DNA of 64,000 nt from Halobaculum limi. Lineage in GTDB: Archaea > Halobacteriota > Halobacteria > Halobacteriales > Haloferacaceae. Below, in pieces: positions 33 to 59,988 of this stretch (the stretch's first letter is position 1; the number at the start of each line of letters is the position of its first letter). Location of the stretch: contig NZ_CP120468.1 in NCBI RefSeq assembly GCF_029490015.1, positions 2,728,001-2,792,000 on the forward strand, in the 5' to 3' direction. The notes under the pieces are model-generated. The model did not search any database. It worked only from the letters and a program-made list of their open reading frames with translations, and was not told where the DNA came from. Both the position numbers and the translations under genes were made by a program.

Positions 33-151
33 GGAGCGCTGCGTTCGGTCGAACGCGCACGAGCGATCCCAACTGGACCAGACCTGCGAGATTCCCTCTC
101 CGTGTAGAAGGGCTGATATGGCCGGGTCTCGGATCGCCACTCGAATCTCGA

Positions 152-856
152 ATGTCCACGTGGAAGCGCGACTTCGCGAGCGGGTTGGTCGTCATCACCC
201 CTTTGCTCGTCATCATCTTCGTCGCCAACTGGCTGTACAACCTCCTGTCCGCGCTCCCGTTCGTTCCGACCATCACCCCGGAGAACCCGGACCCGCAGTT
301 GCTGCCGCTGTACGAGTTCCTCGAAGTTATCACGGCGCTCGTGGTGTTCGTGCTGTTGGTGTTCTCCGCGGGCTACCTGATGCGGACGACGGCCGGTCGG
401 TTCGCGGAGGGGATGCTCGACGACGCGATCAATCGTGTGCCCGGTCTCCGAGTGATCTACAACGCCTCGAAACTCGCCGTCGAGACGGCACTCACCGGCA
501 CGGAAGACCTCCAGACGCCGGTGAAACTCGAACCGTGGAACGGGATGCGGATGACGGCGTTCAAGACGGGGAAGACGACCAGAGACGGCCGCGAGGTGGT
601 GTTTATGCCGACCGCACCGAACATCACCACCGGCTTCGTGATGGAGGTCGAACCCGAGGACTTCACCGAGACGGACGAGCGGGTTGAGGAGGCGCTCACG
701 CGCATCCTCTCGGCGGGCTTTGGGGAGGGCCGCGAGTCGCCGGTGAAGCCAGACTCTGCCGTCGCCGCCGACGGTGCCGCCGTCGGCGACGTCGAACCAG
801 ACGGCGACACTAACACCACTAACACCGACGCGGACCGCGACCGCGGCGACGACTGA
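152..856 (+). CDS. DUF502 family membrane protein
   Basis: The 234-residue protein has two hydrophobic spans near the N terminus (about residues 11-32 and 57-76), then a conserved VPGLRVIYNASK segment (96-107), a soluble beta-rich part and an acidic Asp/Thr/Ala tail from about residue 190. This order is that of the DUF502 family, inner-membrane proteins of unknown function found in bacteria and haloarchaea. The ATG at 152 is chosen because the first span follows it directly; the ATG at 118 lies in another frame and gives an arginine-rich product. The next gene is on the same strand about 90 bases on, so a common transcript is possible but not shown. Confidence 0.85.
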   Translation: MSTWKRDFASGLVVITPLLVIIFVANWLYNLLSALPFVPTITPENPDPQLLPLYEFLEVITALVVFVLLVFSAGYLMRTTAGRFAEGMLDDAINRVPGLRVIYNASKLAVETALTGTEDLQTPVKLEPWNGMRMTAFKTGKTTRDGREVVFMPTAPNITTGFVMEVEPEDFTETDERVEEALTRILSAGFGEGRESPVKPDSAVAADGAAVGDVEPDGDTNTTNTDADRDRGDD

Positions 857-51429: not shown

Positions 51430-52422
51430 ATGGGAGACACTGCACTGGTCATCGGCGGGACGCGCTTCATCGGCCGCCACACCGTCGAGGATCTGCTAGA
51501 CCACGACTACGAGGTCGCCATCTTCAACCGCGGCAACCACGAGAACCCGTTCGCCGACCACGACGACGTGACCCACGTCGAGGGTGACCGCCGCGAGCGA
51601 ATGGACCTCAAGACGGCGAAACTCTCCGTCGACCCCGACATCGTCATCGACTGCGTCGCCTACTACCCCGAGGACGTGCGCGTCGCGACGGACCTGTTCG
51701 ACGACGTCGACGGCTACGTGTACATCTCCTCGGGGTCGTCGTACGCCGACGAGGAGATACCCAAGCGCGAGGGTGAGACTGCGCTCTGCGACTGCACGCC
51801 CGAGCAAGAGGAAGACGACTCGATGGAGACGTACGGCCCACGGAAGGCCGAGGGCGACCGCGCCATCTTCGCGGCCGCCGAGGACGGCGCCAACGCGATG
51901 GCCGTCCGTCCGTGTATCGTCTACGGCCCGTACGACTACACCGAGCGACTCGACTACTGGGTCGACCGCGTGCTGAACCACGACCGGGTCGTCGTCCCCG
52001 GCGACGGCCAGAACATCTGGCACCGCGCGTACGTCGAGGACGTCGCCTCGGCGCTGCGCGTCGTCGCGGAGGAGGGCGAGGCGGGCGAGGCGTACAACGT
52101 CGGCGACCGTCGCCTCGTGACGATGGAGGAGATGGTGAATCTGATCGCCGACGCTGCCGACACGACCTGCGAGGTGGTCCACGCCAGCGACCACGAACTC
52201 TCGGCGGGCGGCCTCACGTCGAGCGACTTCATCCTCTACCGCGACTACCCGCACGTCCTCGACACGAACAAACTGGCCGCCCTCGGCTGGGAGTCGACGC
52301 CGCTGTCGGAGGCGATGGAGCGCACCGTCGCCGAACACCACGAGAGCGACCGCGACGGTAGCGAACACGACCCCGGACGCGAGGCCGAAGAGCGCGTGCT
52401 GGGCGTCCTCGAGACGGTCTGA
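51430..52422 (+). CDS. NAD-dependent epimerase/dehydratase family protein, copy 2
   Basis: The 330-residue protein parallels copy 1 from end to end: VIGGTRFIGRHTVEDLLDHDYEV, YISSGSSYADEE, ETYGPRKAEGDRAIF, AYVEDVASALRVVAEEGEAGEAYNV split over two segments, and LAALGWESTPL. It lies 95 bases after copy 1 on the same strand, so the pair arose by tandem duplication. The catalytic Tyr/Lys pair is kept. The C-terminal tail is more acidic. Confidence 0.82.
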   Translation: MGDTALVIGGTRFIGRHTVEDLLDHDYEVAIFNRGNHENPFADHDDVTHVEGDRRERMDLKTAKLSVDPDIVIDCVAYYPEDVRVATDLFDDVDGYVYISSGSSYADEEIPKREGETALCDCTPEQEEDDSMETYGPRKAEGDRAIFAAAEDGANAMAVRPCIVYGPYDYTERLDYWVDRVLNHDRVVVPGDGQNIWHRAYVEDVASALRVVAEEGEAGEAYNVGDRRLVTMEEMVNLIADAADTTCEVVHASDHELSAGGLTSSDFILYRDYPHVLDTNKLAALGWESTPLSEAMERTVAEHHESDRDGSEHDPGREAEERVLGVLETV

Positions 52423-52471
52423 TTCGGCCCACACTCCGGCCACTCGTCGACCGGCCCGGGTTTCCGACGAC

Positions 52472-53179
52472 TCAGCGCTCGCCGTAGATGTCGGTATCGA
52501 GCGACATCTCCGCGACTTCGTCTTCCAGCCACTCCCGGAACCACTTCACCCGCTTGATCCGTTCGTGAGCGATAGACTCGGCGGCGTCGCTCTCGACGCG
52601 TGAGGCGTGTTCGCGCCCGCGTTCGAGGACGCGCTGGACCATCTCGGCGGCGTCCATGTGGGTGCGCGCCTCGTAGCCCATCCGGAGGATCATCAGTGCG
52701 GTGCCGTTGGCCCCGACCTTGTCGAGGAGGTCCGCCTCGATGAGACACCGCGTCTCCAGCGACAGATCCGACAGCGGTCCCTGATACGAGTGCGCCTCGA
52801 CGCACGAACACACCTCCGAGACGAACGACTCGGGGTACTCGCCGTGGGTTTCGAGGTACTGGCGGGCGACGCGCGCGCCCTCCTCGGCGTGGACGTCCTG
52901 GTCGGCCTCCAGTTTCGACACGTCGTGAAACAGCGCCGCGACCCGGACGACGTCCGTGTCCGCGCCCTCTTTCGCGGCGATGCGCTCGGCGATGTCGACG
53001 ACGTTGAGGATGTGGTTGAAGCGGTACTCCGCAGAGTGCCACGGATACCACCGCATTCGTCCGCCGTCGTCCTCGCTCTCGACGGAGGCGACGAGGTACT
53101 CGCGGACGAAGTGTCGCATATCCGCGAACTCCTCGTCGGTGACGCGCGAACCCTTTATCTCGACGCCCACGGCGTCCAC
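52472..53179 (-). CDS. HD-domain phosphohydrolase
   Basis: The 235-residue protein has the HD motif: His in FNHILNVVDIAERIA and His-Asp in ALFHDVSKLE, plus further His at HAEEGARVA and EAHSYQGP, giving the metal ligands. Family members cleave nucleotides or phosphodiesters. An in-frame ATG also lies at 53119 (MRHFV), so the N-terminal 20 residues are uncertain. It is divergent from alaX with about 215 bases between. The C-terminal half is helical and specific. Confidence 0.78.
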   Translation of the reverse strand: MDAVGVEIKGSRVTDEEFADMRHFVREYLVASVESEDDGGRMRWYPWHSAEYRFNHILNVVDIAERIAAKEGADTDVVRVAALFHDVSKLEADQDVHAEEGARVARQYLETHGEYPESFVSEVCSCVEAHSYQGPLSDLSLETRCLIEADLLDKVGANGTALMILRMGYEARTHMDAAEMVQRVLERGREHASRVESDAAESIAHERIKRVKWFREWLEDEVAEMSLDTDIYGER

Positions 53180-53396
53180 CCCCGGATCCCGGCAGGTCGC
53201 AAACAGAGAGACGTTGTTCTCATTACGGATAGATACGGCTTGTTTCGTCCTTAGTCGTTACGACAGGTACTCCGGTCGATTTGCGGCGCCGGCGCGGAGT
53301 GGAATCGGCGACTGATTCCGCTGTCCGTCGTCGCTACATCGCCCGAGGGCTTCGCACTCGCGAACGCTCAAGTGGGCCGGATGCGACCTGTTCGGT

Positions 53397-54158
53397 ATGA
53401 CCGTTCCGCTCTATCTCGCCGACAGTACCGCGCGGGAGTTCACGGCGACCGTCGAGCGGTCGCTGGACGACCGCGTCGTCCTCGACCGGACGCACTTCTA
53501 CCCGACCGGCGGCGGCCAACCCCACGACACCGGCACGATTCAGGTCGTCGGTGACAGCGACGCCGTCGCCGGCGACGTGGAAGACGACGGCTGGACGTTC
53601 GCCGTCACCGACGTCGAGAAGACCGACACCATCTACCACTACCTCGACGGCTCTGCGCCGCCCGAGGGGACGCGCGTCCGTGGTCGCCTCGACTGGGACC
53701 GCCGCTACGCGCTGATGCGGTATCACACCGCTCAACACCTGCTGTCTGCGGTCCTCTTAGAGGAGTTCGACGCCCGCACGGTCGGCAACCAACTGTACAC
53801 CGACCGCGCCCGCCTCGACGCGGAGTACCCGAAGTTCTCCAAGACGGACCTCGCAGACGTCGAGGCGGCGATGAACGACCTCGTCGACGACGGTCTGCCG
53901 GTGCGCCACTACACGCTCGACCGCGAGACGGCCGAGGCGGAACTGGACACCGAACGTACGCGCATCGACCTGTTGCCCGACTCCATCACGGAACTGCGCA
54001 TCGTCGAGATTGGCGACGAAGACGACCCGTTCGACCGGACCGCCTGCGCCGGAACACACGTCGAGAACACCGACGAGATTGACGAAGTGACCGTCACCGG
54101 CCGGACGACACAGGGCGGCGACAAAGAGCGCGTGGAGTTCACGCTGGCGGACATGTGA
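53397..54158 (+). CDS. alaX: Alanyl-tRNA editing protein AlaX
   Basis: The 253-residue protein has the editing-domain metal site: His110 and His114 in MRYHTAQHLLSAV, and Cys217 and His221 in CAGTHVEN. It hydrolyses mischarged Ser-tRNA(Ala) (or Gly-tRNA(Ala)). The first part reads FYPTGGGQPHDTG, as in AlaX-M and the AlaRS editing domain. No alanyl-tRNA synthetase is nearby. The ATG is preceded by about 215 bases of divergent spacer. Confidence 0.9.
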   Translation: MTVPLYLADSTAREFTATVERSLDDRVVLDRTHFYPTGGGQPHDTGTIQVVGDSDAVAGDVEDDGWTFAVTDVEKTDTIYHYLDGSAPPEGTRVRGRLDWDRRYALMRYHTAQHLLSAVLLEEFDARTVGNQLYTDRARLDAEYPKFSKTDLADVEAAMNDLVDDGLPVRHYTLDRETAEAELDTERTRIDLLPDSITELRIVEIGDEDDPFDRTACAGTHVENTDEIDEVTVTGRTTQGGDKERVEFTLADM

Positions 54159-54278
54159 GCGACCGCCCGACCGATCCAACGTCGGTCGGTTTCAGGCGTG
54201 ATATTCGGGAAGGTACATATTTACGACGGATACGGGTAGCATCGTTCAGCGGCACAGGGAGTGCGGACGAACCAGGAT

Positions 54279-54737
54279 ATGCTTAGACCGAGCGATTACG
54301 ACCCGAAGGAGTTGCGAGCGTTGACGGGAGCGGCGGCGCCGACGCACGCCGACGAGGAAGGGGCCCGGTGGACGACGCCGGACGACTTCCTCGGTCGAGC
54401 GGATGCGCGCGTGCGGGCGGCGCAGGTGGAAGACGCCTTCCTCCTTCAGGCAGCGGCCGGCGGTGCGAGCAGACCCTACCTCCCGAGTCTACCCGACTCG
54501 GTCGTGGGGACGCAACTCGTACTCGACTGGCTACGCTACCTCGTCGGCGTCGGCGGGCGCGAACGCGCCCGCGAGGCGCTCGCCTTCTATCGGGACGTGG
54601 AGTGGCTCGACGAGTCCGTCGAGGACGACCTCGCGACGTACCTCGAAGCCTTCGACGACACAGAGGGTTCACGGATCGGCGTCGGCCACCATCGCACCAG
54701 CCTGCTGTTCGTCGCCCGCCTCGCCGCGCTCCGATAA
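54279..54737 (+). CDS. FlaD/E-type archaellum accessory-like protein
   Basis: The 152-residue protein has an N-terminal MLRPSDYDPKELR, then a helical core YLPSLPDSVVGTQLVLDWL (67-85) and AREALAFYRDVEWLDESVEDDLATYL (two segments, to 122), the FlaD/FlaE pattern of cytosolic archaellum switch proteins, which link the motor to chemotaxis signals. No archaellum genes are near. Instead it is three bases upstream of an actin homologue. The start is ATG 54279; a GTG at 54261 is also possible. Confidence 0.72.
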   Translation: MLRPSDYDPKELRALTGAAAPTHADEEGARWTTPDDFLGRADARVRAAQVEDAFLLQAAAGGASRPYLPSLPDSVVGTQLVLDWLRYLVGVGGRERAREALAFYRDVEWLDESVEDDLATYLEAFDDTEGSRIGVGHHRTSLLFVARLAALR

Positions 54738-54739
54738 CC

Positions 54740-55807
54740 ATGGCAGCAGAATCCGACTCCGCAGACGACAGTTTCGAGTCCAGCAACCCGACTCCGATCG
54801 GTGTCAAACTCGGCTCTACCCGGACAGTCCTCCGCTACTACGAGAACGAGGAGGCGGACCTCACGACGGTCCGCACGCTCACGTGTCTCGCCCTCTACGA
54901 GGACGCTATCACCGGTGAGGAGAAGGCCCTGTTTGGGGAACAGGCCGCCGCCGAGTACCCCGACCGCGTCGAGTACATGCTCCGCTCGGGCCTCCCCGAA
55001 GACGACGACCGCGCCGAACTGGCCGGGCGCTTCTTCCGCGAACTCCTCTCGGCCAACGGCGTCCCCTCCGACTCGGCGGTGGTGTACGCCGTCCCGACGA
55101 TGGAGAACGACGCTGGGTTGGAGAACCTCACCGACGTCATCGAGTCGTCGGACATCGGCGCACACACGATGCGTGCGTACCCCGAGTCGCTGTGCGGGGC
55201 CATCCCCGCGATGGGCGACGGCGTGGAGGCCGTCTCCGACGTGTTCATCTCGGTGAACATGGGGTCGACCAACCTCGAGGCGTGTGCGTACCGTCGCGGC
55301 GACCAACTTATCCCGTTCTCGACGGGGTCGGTCACGGGCAACGACGTGGACCGACGCATCGTCGCCAACGTCGAAGAGGAGACGCAAGGGCGCGTCCACG
55401 TCGACCTGACGACCGCCCGCGAGTACAAAGAACAGCACGGCAACGTCGGTAACTTCGAGCCGTTCTCGGACGTGATCCAACAGCCTGGCGGTGGCTCTCA
55501 CGAGTTCACCATCGAGGACAGCGTCGTCGACGCTCTCGACTGGTATCTCGACGCCGCCGTCAACGAGGTCGCAAACGAGTTCCTCCCCGAACTCGCCAAC
55601 GACTACATGAAGGTGTACCAACTGTCGCTGGGCAACGACATCGCGCTCACCGGCGGGATGGCGTGCATCCCCGGCCTCCCCGAGGAGTTCCAGCGCCGCC
55701 TCTCGGCGGAACTCGACCGCGACGTGAACGTGGTCGTCCCCGAGGAACCGGATCTGGCGGCCGCAGAGGGCGCGCGCCGTATCGCCGAGAAACTCGCCGA
55801 CCAGTAA
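54740..55807 (+). CDS. Actin/MreB-superfamily protein, salactin-like
   Basis: The 355-residue protein has the actin-fold ATPase signature: GVKLGSTRT (21-29) as phosphate-1, VFISVNMGSTNLEACAY (168-184) as phosphate-2, and TGGMACIPG (304-312) as the adenosine motif. It is shorter than crenactin. Stretches such as DYMKVYQLSLG and VIQQPGGGSHEF match what I remember of Halobacterium salactin, a dynamically unstable filament-forming actin found in haloarchaea. The ATG is three bases after the FlaD/E-like stop, and seven bases separate it from the next membrane-protein gene; the three form one operon. Confidence 0.78.
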   Translation: MAAESDSADDSFESSNPTPIGVKLGSTRTVLRYYENEEADLTTVRTLTCLALYEDAITGEEKALFGEQAAAEYPDRVEYMLRSGLPEDDDRAELAGRFFRELLSANGVPSDSAVVYAVPTMENDAGLENLTDVIESSDIGAHTMRAYPESLCGAIPAMGDGVEAVSDVFISVNMGSTNLEACAYRRGDQLIPFSTGSVTGNDVDRRIVANVEEETQGRVHVDLTTAREYKEQHGNVGNFEPFSDVIQQPGGGSHEFTIEDSVVDALDWYLDAAVNEVANEFLPELANDYMKVYQLSLGNDIALTGGMACIPGLPEEFQRRLSAELDRDVNVVVPEEPDLAAAEGARRIAEKLADQ

Positions 55808-55813
55808 GCGGCG

Positions 55814-56593
55814 ATGGCCGGCTTCGACTTCGGCGGCGACACGACCGACGACACCGGTCCCGACGCGGCGGCGGCCGACGCGCCGCCCTCGGCCCCACCG
55901 ACGGCCGACACGGTCGTCTCGCCGGCCGACCCGGAGCCACTCGCCGACCACGATTCTCTCGCGGATTCACACCCCTCAGACAGCGACGCCGCCGACGGGA
56001 CCGACCCGCACGTCGACGCGATGCTGTACGCTGGTGAAGAAGCGTGCGCGTCGCTCCCCATCGCGAACGGCACCCTCGTCGCGACGACGCACCGACTGCT
56101 CGCGTACGCGCCCGACGCCGACGAGCGAGCGACCCTGCGGTCGGTCCACCGCGTGAACGTCACCGACGTCTCCGTGACGCCGAACGGCCACGACTGGCTG
56201 GTCCGCCCCACCGCGTACGCCGTCATCGGCGGCCTCGCGATGGTCGTCGGCGGGTCCGTCGTCTCCTTCGACGCGATGAACACCGAGATGCCGCAGTCGG
56301 CCGGTGCGGCCGGTATCGGCGGCTTACTGTCGATGATCGGTGGCCTCCTCTCGGTGCTGTCGATGGTCGACGACGCGCTTCGCGTCCTCGGGTCGCTCTC
56401 GCTGTTGGTCGGCGTCGCACTGATGGGCCTGTACCTGTACACCCGCGGCCACGACGTGGTCGTCGAGACGGAGGGGGAGGCCGATACGCTCCGCGTCGCC
56501 GCCGGTGACGCCGACAGCGCCGAAGTCGAGCGATTCGTGGCCGACGCCGGACTGGACGACGGCGACGACGAGGGCGACCTGTTCAGACTGTAG
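55814..56593 (+). CDS. Membrane protein with PH-like domain, third gene of the actin operon
   Basis: The 259-residue protein has an acidic disordered N terminus (1-65), a small beta-rich domain (68-125) with GTLVATTHRLLAYAP typical of bacterial/archaeal PH-like domains, and three membrane spans (about 133-152, 166-185, 190-209), then a cytoplasmic C-terminal region. It begins seven bases after the actin stop. It could be the membrane anchor for the filament; no family is named. There is no other gene until the T-run of the CBS gene. Confidence 0.7.
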   Translation: MAGFDFGGDTTDDTGPDAAAADAPPSAPPTADTVVSPADPEPLADHDSLADSHPSDSDAADGTDPHVDAMLYAGEEACASLPIANGTLVATTHRLLAYAPDADERATLRSVHRVNVTDVSVTPNGHDWLVRPTAYAVIGGLAMVVGGSVVSFDAMNTEMPQSAGAAGIGGLLSMIGGLLSVLSMVDDALRVLGSLSLLVGVALMGLYLYTRGHDVVVETEGEADTLRVAAGDADSAEVERFVADAGLDDGDDEGDLFRL

Positions 56594-56626
56594 CGGTCGC
56601 TGGGAGGTGCGATAGCGACCGGCGAG

Positions 56627-56631
56627 AAAAA
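56627..56631 (-). terminator. T-run after the CBS gene
   Basis: Five T on the minus strand about 30 bases after the stop of the convergent CBS gene. Confidence 0.3.
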
Positions 56632-56662
56632 GAGAGATCAGTTTCCGCCGTCCCGGAGTGCC

Positions 56663-57805
56663 TTACAGTTCGCCCAGTTTCCGGAGGAGTTGGCCGCGGT
56701 AGCGCTCGTCGGCGGTGACGCCCTTCACCTCGAGGACGTTCCGCTCGAGTTTGTCGAGGGCGACGTGGAAGGCGTGTTCAGCGCCGTAGCCTTCGCCCGA
56801 TCCGGCGACCTGTCCGTGGGTGGTGCGCAGGCGGATCTGACACTGAATGAGCGGGGTGCCCCGGAGTTTCTCCTTGTGCTCGTGGAAGCGAACGTGCGCG
56901 TGCAGGACGCGCATCTCCTGGTACTTCTCCGACACCTGCCCGATCGACGTGCGGATGTCTTCGCGGGTGAGCGTGTCGAGGAGGCTGACGTTCGTCACCT
57001 GCACGTCCATCGCGTCCTCCTCGGTGAACGTCAGCGCACGGAGCACGTCCGTCTTGGTGAGTACGCCCGCGACGAGGTCGTCGCGGTCTTCGGGCGTGAC
57101 GACGAGGCCGCTGACGTCCTGCTCCATCATCATCTCGACGGCCGCGTGGACCGACTGGTCGGCGGTGACGGTGAGGACCGGCGACGACATCATGTCGTAC
57201 ACCGGGAGGTCGAGCATCCGGTCGAGGTCGCCGCGGCGGTCGCCGCGCCCCTGCCGCTTGCTGTCGCGAACGACGAAGTCGACGATGTCGTGGGTGGTGA
57301 GGATCCCCTCCAGTCGTCCGTTTTCGTTGACGACGGGGAGCCGCGAGATGCCGTTCTCGCGGAGGCGGTTGATCGCCTGCCCCACGTGGGCGTCTTCGGG
57401 GACGGTCACGACGTCGCTCGTGTAGATGTCGTCGACCGTCAGCGCGTCGAGGTTGTCGTGAACGGCCGAGAGGATGGCGTCGACCGTGACGATGCCGAAC
57501 AACTGCTCACCCTCGTAGACGGGGGCGATCTTGACGTTCCCCTCGACGAGGACGCGCGCGACCTCGCGGAGGTCTTCGGTGCGGTCGACCTCCGGGGCGG
57601 GCTTCATCAGCGCCGCCGCTTTGGTGTCGTCCTCGACGCGCGAGTTGACCAGCTCGCGCTCGCCGATGACGCCGGCGTACTCGCCGTTCTCCATCACGAT
57701 GATTCCCTTGGGGTTCTCGCGGTCGAACAGCGAGCGGATCTTCCCGAGTCGTTCGTCTGCGTCGACCTCGACGAACTCCGGCACGGCGATGTTTGAGATG
57801 TCCAT
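56663..57805 (-). CDS. CBS-domain protein with HPF-like C terminus
   Basis: The 380-residue protein has four CBS repeats (about residues 6-60, 66-122, 128-185 and 200-262), each ending in a glycine-isoleucine core like GISRLPVVNENGRLEGI, and a C-terminal domain (about 285-370) with VLHAHVRFHEHKEKLRG, IQCQIRLRTTHGQV and AFHVALDKLERNVLE, like bacterial hibernation-promoting factor/RaiA. An archaeal ribosome dimerisation factor of CBS type is known, so a role in ribosome hibernation is proposed. CBS domains bind adenosine nucleotides, which would link it to energy state. Confidence 0.82.
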   Translation of the reverse strand: MDISNIAVPEFVEVDADERLGKIRSLFDRENPKGIIVMENGEYAGVIGERELVNSRVEDDTKAAALMKPAPEVDRTEDLREVARVLVEGNVKIAPVYEGEQLFGIVTVDAILSAVHDNLDALTVDDIYTSDVVTVPEDAHVGQAINRLRENGISRLPVVNENGRLEGILTTHDIVDFVVRDSKRQGRGDRRGDLDRMLDLPVYDMMSSPVLTVTADQSVHAAVEMMMEQDVSGLVVTPEDRDDLVAGVLTKTDVLRALTFTEEDAMDVQVTNVSLLDTLTREDIRTSIGQVSEKYQEMRVLHAHVRFHEHKEKLRGTPLIQCQIRLRTTHGQVAGSGEGYGAEHAFHVALDKLERNVLEVKGVTADERYRGQLLRKLGEL

Positions 57806-57961
57806 AACTCCGTTACGCCGGTACGATCCCCCGGCTATTGAAGGTTGGTTCGGATCCCAGTATCTGAGGGGGTGCTATGCTATCGCAAGACATATACTCA
57901 AACCGCACGACGTAGTACGGGTCGACGGGACGAGTGCGCGGTTGAGTCGTCAATCGAGCGC

Positions 57962-58381
57962 TCAGACGATGCCGTCGGCGTCGCCGATGGGCGTGACGGA
58001 GTAGTCGACAGTCTTCGTGTCGGTCGTCGCACGGATCTTCCCGACGAACGTCGATATCTGTTCGAGGTTCCCTTCGAGGATGAACAGTTCCATACAGTTG
58101 TGGTCGCCGACGTGGCTGTGGAGGTTGGAGGCGACCAGGTCCTCGTGTTCGTGGCGCAACTGCATCATCCGCTCTTCGACCGACGTTCCCTCGTAGTCGA
58201 AGACGACCGTGACGATGCCCATCAGTTCACGGTCTTCGAGTTTGCGGTCCTCGAACTCGCCGAGGAGGTCGCGGGCCGCCTCCCGGAGCAGTTCGCTACG
58301 GCCAGTGTAGCCGTGTTCCTCGGTGAACTCGTCGATACGGTCGACGAGACTGTCCGGCATCGAGACGCTGATCACTCCCAT
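57962..58381 (-). CDS. nikR: Nickel-responsive regulator NikR
   Basis: The 139-residue protein has an N-terminal ribbon-helix-helix ([28 protein letters not shown]) and a C-terminal ACT-like domain with His77, His88, His90 and Cys96, exactly the nickel ligands of NikR. It represses nickel-uptake genes when nickel is bound. No nickel transporter lies nearby. The start is ATG 58381. An inverted repeat covers its TATA region, a likely operator for autoregulation. Confidence 0.9.
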
Positions 58382-58383
58382 AT

Positions 58384-58411
58384 ATTAACACAAGCGGCAG
58401 AAATTGTTAAT
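58384..58411. promoter_or_regulatory. NikR-type inverted repeat in the nikR promoter
   Basis: ATTAACA-N14-TGTTAAT is a perfect 7-bp inverted repeat. The distal arm lies where the TATA box should be (about 27 bases from the start), the proximal arm directly before the ATG. Long-spaced inverted repeats are typical NikR operators in bacteria. Confidence 0.6.
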
Positions 58412-58428
58412 CCTTCTGCAAGCGCCAC

Positions 58429-59988
58429 TCACTCGGTGAGTCGGTCGACGGAGGCGCGGACGCGGTCGAGGCGAACACGCTGTTCGTCGGCGGCGTCCGC
58501 GATGGCGTCGACGTTGCGGCGAACGGTCGTCGCCTCGCGGCTGGCTTCCTCGACGAGTGCGGCGACCTCTTCGGTGGACGACGCCTGCGAGTCGGTGGCT
58601 CTCGCGACCTCCTCGACGCCGGAGGCGGCCTCGCGGATCGCCTCGGCAATCTCGTCGAGGCGTTCCATCGAGTCTTCGACGCGGTCGACGCCGTCTGCGA
58701 TCCGCTGTTCTGTCAGTTCGAGGCTGTCGACGGTGTCTTCGGCACCCGTCTGGATGTTCTCGACCAGCGACTCGATCTCGCCTGCGCGTTGCTGTGACTC
58801 CTCGGCGAGACTCTTCACCTCGTCGGCGACGACCGCGAAGCCGTCGCCCGCCTCGCCCGCGCGGGCGGCCTCGATGTTAGCGTTGAGCGCCAGCAGGTTC
58901 GTCTGGTCGGCGATACCGTCGATCACTGAGACCACCTCGTCGATCTCACCGACCCGTTCGCGGAGGTCGTCGAGGTCGTCGGTCACCTCGTCGGTCGCCG
59001 TCTCGATGTCCGCCATCGTCTCGAGGGCGTCGCCCGCGGCGTCGACGCCCTCCTCTGCGAGCGTCTCGGCGTCTGCGGAGACGGCCGCGACCTGTTCGGC
59101 GCTCGCGGCGACCTCTTCGACGCTGGCCGAGAGCGTCCCGACCTCCGCTTCCACTTCGGTCATCCGGTCGGCCTGTGTCTCCGCGAGGTCGCGCATCTCG
59201 TCGGCCGTCTCCGCGACGTCGGCCGCCGACTCGCCCACCTCCGCGAGCGGTTCCTCGACCTCTTCGGACACCTCCGTGGTGAGTTCGCGACGGCGGTCGA
59301 TCTCCGTCTCCATCTGCTCGGCGTACGAGTCGATGTACGTGTCCATCGCCACCTGCTGGTCGAGCAACAGCAGTTTCAACACGGGGAGCAGTCGGTCGAC
59401 GAGGCGGGTCATCGCCCGGTCGCCCGGCGAGTCCGTCTCCACGCCCGCCTCCTCGCGTGCTTCCGTCGCGAGGGCGTCGATCAGGCCCTCGTAGTAGATG
59501 CTGTAGCCCGAGAAGTACACGCGCGGGCCCAGATCGAGCATATCATGGATCTTCCCGATCCGGGCGCGGCGCTCGAAGTAGTCTTGATCGTACTCACCGC
59601 CCCCCAGGTCGGTGAGGTACTGCATCTGTGATCCCTTCAGCGCCTGCAGCCCCTTCGTCGAGGAGTCGAGGATCGCCTGCATCTCCTCGTGGCTCGTGAG
59701 GTGGTCGTAGAACTCGTCGACGAGGTCGGGTGCGATCGCCTCGAACAACGGCTCCAACGAGTCCAGCGTCTCCTCGTCTTCCGGTGAGAATCGGGTGAAC
59801 CGCTTCCGCGTCCGGACGTCTTCGGCGTCCAGTCCGAGTCGCGCCGCCAGTTTCGACCCGTCGACGCCGCGACGGTCCGCGTCGGTCACAGCGTACCCGC
59901 CCGGCGGTCCCGCCTGTGCAACGCCGCCGTCCGTCCGCCGTGGGTTCCCACTGTTGGAGGTCTGCTCCGACTCCCTACCTCTATCCAT
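58429..59988 (-). CDS. hemAT: Heme-based aerotaxis transducer HemAT
   Basis: The 519-residue soluble protein has a globin-type sensor (about residues 45-230) with proximal His148 in ARIGKIHDMLDLGP, and a methyl-accepting signalling domain whose hairpin reads IDGIADQTNLLALNANIEAARAG with EAGDGFAVVADEVKSLAEES; both are perfectly conserved in appearance. No membrane span is present. Such proteins sense oxygen and act on CheA in aerotaxis. It is divergent from a CheY-like protein at 60089. Confidence 0.92.
   Translation of the reverse strand: MDRGRESEQTSNSGNPRRTDGGVAQAGPPGGYAVTDADRRGVDGSKLAARLGLDAEDVRTRKRFTRFSPEDEETLDSLEPLFEAIAPDLVDEFYDHLTSHEEMQAILDSSTKGLQALKGSQMQYLTDLGGGEYDQDYFERRARIGKIHDMLDLGPRVYFSGYSIYYEGLIDALATEAREEAGVETDSPGDRAMTRLVDRLLPVLKLLLLDQQVAMDTYIDSYAEQMETEIDRRRELTTEVSEEVEEPLAEVGESAADVAETADEMRDLAETQADRMTEVEAEVGTLSASVEEVAASAEQVAAVSADAETLAEEGVDAAGDALETMADIETATDEVTDDLDDLRERVGEIDEVVSVIDGIADQTNLLALNANIEAARAGEAGDGFAVVADEVKSLAEESQQRAGEIESLVENIQTGAEDTVDSLELTEQRIADGVDRVEDSMERLDEIAEAIREAASGVEEVARATDSQASSTEEVAALVEEASREATTVRRNVDAIADAADEQRVRLDRVRASVDRLTE

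Follow-up and report, generated by a model that had tools for sequence, protein, structure and literature searches.

Genome comparison supports a conserved pair in haloarchaea, consisting of a gene for an ArlD-type protein and the gene for salactin, an actin-fold ATPase. The pair opens a block of three genes in a 64,000-nucleotide stretch of the Halobaculum limi genome (C1:2728001-2792000, called the window here). The explanation we favor, which has roughly even prospects of being right, is that ArlD is the polar partner of salactin and that the window carries a salactin operon led by an ArlD-type adaptor gene.

Table 1. Positions of the genes and loci discussed in the text.
Feature	Location	Strand	Description
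Gene A	window 54279..54737	+	152 aa; ArlD-type protein, Arch_fla_DE domain at residues 64-149
Gene B	window 54740..55807	+	355 aa; salactin, actin-fold ATPase; 2 bases past gene A
Gene C	window 55814..56593	+	259 aa; PH/GRAM-like membrane protein; 6 bases past gene B
Chemotaxis transducer	window 58429-59988	-	Protoglobin-MCP (HemAT-like); ~1.8 kb behind the operon
Archaellum locus of the same genome (L144)	C1:426-445 kb		ArlCE-F-G-H-I-J, CheC, archaellins
ArlCE gene of the same genome	near C1:434786-435841
Extra PF04659 protein, Haloferax-group loci	e.g. L108:2240-2695		2.3-3.9 kb downstream of salactin; long branch
ParA-type ATPase	L222:4361-5287		Divergent; mostly two genes upstream of salactin; 38 further entries
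PH-fold plus helical-repeat protein	L035:2936-4939		Behind salactin

A block of three genes with spacings of 2 and 6 bases had been described in a sequence-only reading and was confirmed, with all three frames on the forward strand. The close spacing suggests that genes A, B and C are co-transcribed. The statement in the same reading that no archaellum genes are near holds for the flanks in which it was checked (51430-59988), where a chemotaxis transducer is present. The archaellum locus of the genome, whose genes were named from gene order and domains, lacks both ArlD and salactin. Because gene A lies outside the archaellum cluster, it is called ArlD-type here and is not treated as a proven archaellum part.

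Gene A matches the Pfam family PF04659, Arch_fla_DE, with 73.4 bits (cut-off 21), and besides ArlCE it is the sole PF04659 protein in its genome. It had been labeled FlaD/E-like. The domain bears this out, but the label is generic, as the tree places gene A as ArlD-type. In a careful tree of 61 Arch_fla_DE domains and 111 columns, whose deeper forks are not settled, gene A fell on the ArlD side and was excluded from the ArlCE clade (99/97). Of the rows in that clade, 15 are ArlCE-type and one, from genome G116 and labeled salactin-linked, is ArlCE-like. Outside it were the remaining rows linked to salactin, along with the ArlD encoded in the archaellum locus of Halobacterium (L145). Of 100 rows, 39 (long branches and near-copies) were omitted from the careful tree. 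A quick tree retained all 100, and in it the salactin-linked f5 row L077 lay near the ArlCE side, together with the third PF04659 type of Haloferax-group genomes. Haloferax-group loci carry an extra PF04659 protein downstream of salactin (Table 1).

The archaellum switch protein ArlD/FlaD (PMC6509185; arl locus L145 of Halobacterium) has the Arch_fla_DE domain and tree side of gene A and shares with it an N-terminal NPxxYDxxELRxxA-like stretch, but gene A, unlike it, sits outside the archaellum locus. A similar N-terminal stretch occurs in family f6, which lacks salactin, and this led us to reject the idea of a salactin-specific motif at the N-terminus of gene A. Searching solved structures with gene A gave no match. 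According to the accessible part of PMC6509185, FlaD is needed for archaella and motility in Haloferax volcanii, and FlaD-GFP localizes to the pole.

Gene B had been described as an actin-fold ATPase close to salactin. The fold stands, but the rest was understated: gene B passes the NCBIfam equivalog model NF053533, 'salactin', with 564.6 bits (cut-off 400), which makes it salactin proper, and it matches Pfam Salactin PF25229 with 572.1 bits (cut-off 27.1). Its nearest named relatives, among the best 80 of 136 found, are from Halobaculum species (92-94% identity). By passing the equivalog model gene B agrees with the salactin of Halobacterium salinarum (PMC10746226), but in that organism (L242) salactin does not adjoin arlD. 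Volactin of H. volcanii (PMC10869688) is likewise a haloarchaeal actin homologue, but gene B does not pass the Volactin model (17 bits, cut-off 35). In H. salinarum, the accessible text of PMC10746226 describes polar, dynamically unstable salactin filaments growing from polar foci, and poor synteny around salactin, even within Halobacterium. The terms 'archaell' and 'flagell' are absent from the available text of that paper, the term 'archaell' is absent from a review naming salactin, and no paper joining salactin with ArlD was found in the open-access literature. Several salactin copies occur in the Actinarchaeum genome G182 (L074, L097, L104), with five matches, pieces included.

Salactin was found above cut-off in 140/292 genomes of class Halobacteria. 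Neighborhoods were obtained for 113 salactin loci from 105 of the 140 genomes; many of the other 35 belong to group g2 (G186 fetched). The ArlD-type gene was directly 5' of salactin on the same strand in 83/113 loci, equivalent to 83/105 genomes and 25/28 genera. The same adjacency was seen in 74/80 named loci, which are the best 80 of 136 found and overlap the 113-locus sample. The linkage recurs over three families. In Halobacteriaceae the pair is split (0/9 loci in two genera). Other misses include the two loci of a genus in which the genes are 5 kb apart, and a divergent pair in G164. G116 and G267 contain arrays in which ArlCE-type genes and salactin genes occur together (L050, L065), and these were counted as misses too. 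Misses among the named loci include L188, which is a contig edge, and L242, which is H. salinarum. Outside Halobacteria, no PF04659 gene was found near 20 salactin loci (4-17 kb fetched, several being short contigs), which confines the observed link to haloarchaea. Conservation of the order A-B-C beyond the species had been proposed as a check; A-B is widespread, whereas A-B-C is found in few genera only.

An old gene order could be retained by chance, with no shared function between the two proteins. The split in Halobacteriaceae fits this account, and other window neighbors, HD-domain and AlaX-like genes, are also common to close genera. However, the pair occurs in differing surroundings, namely a che cluster, a ParA neighborhood and the window locus, and so moves together. 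We consider retention by chance very improbable.

By their coordinates, salactin and arlC share a contig and are at most 13 kb apart in 23 genomes, namely all 14 genomes in the Haloferax group (g7), 4 genomes in g3, and G157, G121, G286, G116 and G267; the assignment of groups g1, g2, g3, g7, g24, g27, g35 and g67 to genera rests partly on inference. In the Haloferax-group locus L108 the gene order is DUF7500-CheY-CheC-CheD-ArlD-salactin. A link to the pole or motor, which had been offered as a possibility from the window, gains weight because the pair is within or near an archaellum/chemotaxis cluster in Haloferax and some relatives. In H. volcanii, 'ArlD/HVO_1202' is described in the accessible part of PMC13286277 as one transcriptional unit that is up in a csmR deletion. 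HVO_1202 is probably the H. volcanii salactin, judging from the accessible parts of PMC13286277, PMC2841640 and PMC3956466 set beside locus L108.

This proximity favors an accessory role for salactin in motility, namely placing the motors of archaella, with ArlD serving as the cargo contact and as an archaellum part only. The same role is favored by the presence of ArlC in 136/140 salactin genomes versus 90/152 salactin-free genomes (the ArlC-negative set is 66 as used and 64 by cut-off, which leaves its four salactin-positive members unaffected). Against it, salactin deletion left H. salinarum motility unchanged, according to the accessible part of PMC10746226, and the pair is kept without an archaellum. 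We regard this accessory role as unlikely.

Neither an ArlC match nor an ArlJ orthologue was found in genomes G289, G276 and G182, which are 99%, 98% and 94% complete; for G276 and G182 the ArlC result is their absence from the list of matches. The best ArlJ match in G289 scored 45 bits and G276 and G182 gave none. No archaellin was matched in G276 or G182, and the single archaellin frame of G289 contains two stops. In all three genomes the ArlD-type gene is still next to salactin. The pair is also kept in four loci from genomes without an ArlJ orthologue, L191 (Halocatena), L229 (Natrinema), L241 and L239, the last being a possibly incomplete metagenome bin. The genome of L218, from the Actinarchaeum species of G182, likewise has no ArlJ orthologue; three control genomes in this second search gave ArlJ at 612-1167 bits. 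G186 was dropped as an archaellum-less candidate, as its ArlC had merely been missed and ArlJ and archaellins are present. In the careful tree, the ArlD-type proteins of G276, G182, L191, L229, L239 and one Haloglomus form a subclade (100/98), that of G289 groups with its own genus, and the L241 protein is absent. The dN/dS of ArlD was 0.13-0.15 in two pairs from the archaellum-less group, with dS near saturation, and a third pair was saturated. For the Actinarchaeum group, the accessible part of PMC10067837 reports archaellum loss and expansion of an MreB-like family. As far as gene content can tell, the ArlD-salactin pair outlives loss of the archaellum.

A PF04659 protein besides ArlCE was present in 140/140 salactin genomes versus 81/152 genomes without salactin; these are raw counts with kinship ignored, and the second PF04659 proteins are only partly typed as ArlD, those of sampled f4 genomes falling with ArlCE. 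Nine genomes have ArlCE as their sole PF04659 protein, and 9/9 are without salactin and 9/9 have ArlJ (kinship ignored). The 81 salactin-free genomes indicate that the second PF04659 protein does not need salactin. Two Halobellus-type genomes (L264, L265) keep the archaellum and the ArlD-type gene; no salactin was found in them, nor a remnant near the ArlD-type gene.

Salactin may instead be a chromosome partition filament, as published, with a DNA or polar adaptor yet to be found and a linkage to arlD that is regulatory or historical. Plasmid partition cassettes of the ParM, AlfA and Alp7A types have a dynamic actin beside a small adaptor gene. The window operon is like these cassettes, also compared in PMC10746226, in having an actin and a small adjacent gene. 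It differs in that a Pfam search of genes A and C found no DNA-binding family, and no centromere-like repeat array was found in 54100-54800 and 55700-57000, where only two-copy, chance-like repeats occur. The partition account draws on the DNA partition defect in low phosphate that the accessible part of PMC10746226 ties to salactin, and on the divergent ParA-type ATPase found upstream in 39 neighbor entries, all Haloarculaceae-type or named loci, where it lies beside the ArlD-type gene. Set against these are the lack of a DNA-binding family in genes A and C and of a repeat array in the two stretches searched, and an ArlD linkage that spans three families and outlives the archaellum. A filament that serves partition through some other adaptor seems to us a poor bet.

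No Pfam or NCBIfam match was obtained for gene C. It had been read as a PH-like protein with three membrane spans; the PH fold and three hydrophobic peaks stand, but a count of three crossings is less likely. The AlphaFold2 model (mean pLDDT 72.4) aligned in VIA-align to 4tyz with Z 10.7 (rmsd 2.7, 99 aligned) and to 3dcx and 3hsa with Z 10.5, while the best Foldseek hit had an E of 0.024 and none was <0.001. The family alignment contained 17 sequences. The hydrophobic peaks are near 143, 176 and 198-200, and in the model hydrophobic helices at about 127-149 and 169-210 are inserted into the PH/GRAM-like fold. The strands flanking the hydrophobic region on either side align to a single PH domain (alignment 62..249), so that three true membrane crossings are predicted to be less likely than an even number.

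Relatives of gene C are directly 3' of salactin in 20 locus entries (overlapping samples), plus G081 by coordinates. Gene C was rejected as a dedicated salactin partner because its profile matches 121/292 genomes, mostly unlinked to salactin and including f4 genomes without salactin. In Haloarculaceae-type genomes a different protein with an N-terminal PH fold comes after salactin (43 entries, some split genes); its model has a pLDDT of 87 and a Z of 10.8 to 4tyz. A PH-fold protein thus follows salactin in two separate protein families, for which a common origin is not claimed (profile comparison not significant, E 0.029, probability 1.7%). Some members of the PH-fold plus helical-repeat protein at L035 have a weak Mrr_cat endonuclease-like C-terminus.

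An ArlD-type adaptor on the filament's polar end is the simplest account that takes in the polar salactin foci, the polar FlaD-GFP and the gene linkage together. We infer that the ArlD-type protein binds this end. The wide spread of the pair, and its retention in some relatives without the motor, suggest cooperation between the two proteins. Counted against the partnership are the unchanged motility of H. salinarum, the split in Halobacteriaceae, the 20 loci outside Halobacteria, the 81 salactin-free genomes with a second PF04659 protein and the Halobellus-group ArlD without salactin. Under the ArlD-partner explanation, the adaptor would tie a dynamic salactin filament to polar assemblies. In cells with an archaellum these assemblies would be its motor and polar cap, and in other cells some different polar structure. 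Growth and collapse of the filament could then place polar complexes, and possibly chromosomes, or share them between daughter cells. Optional tethering to the membrane would fall to gene C and, in Haloarculaceae-type genomes, to the PH protein of the other family.

More tentatively, and with doubt outweighing confidence, ArlD-type proteins may serve as pole-end actin adaptors, a function separable from archaellum switching. One pair would then place or partition both polar machinery and DNA, and archaellum-less lineages, including the Actinarchaeum group with its hyphae, would retain this pair solely for polar organization. The conserved ArlD-type neighbor is a testable candidate partner for salactin, whose neighborhood was found uninformative in its paper. 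Haloferax-group species have both the pair and mature genetics, which makes the idea directly testable. The pairing connects the actin cytoskeleton of archaea with the motor that drives swimming, and it suggests activity of a switch-complex protein outside that motor.
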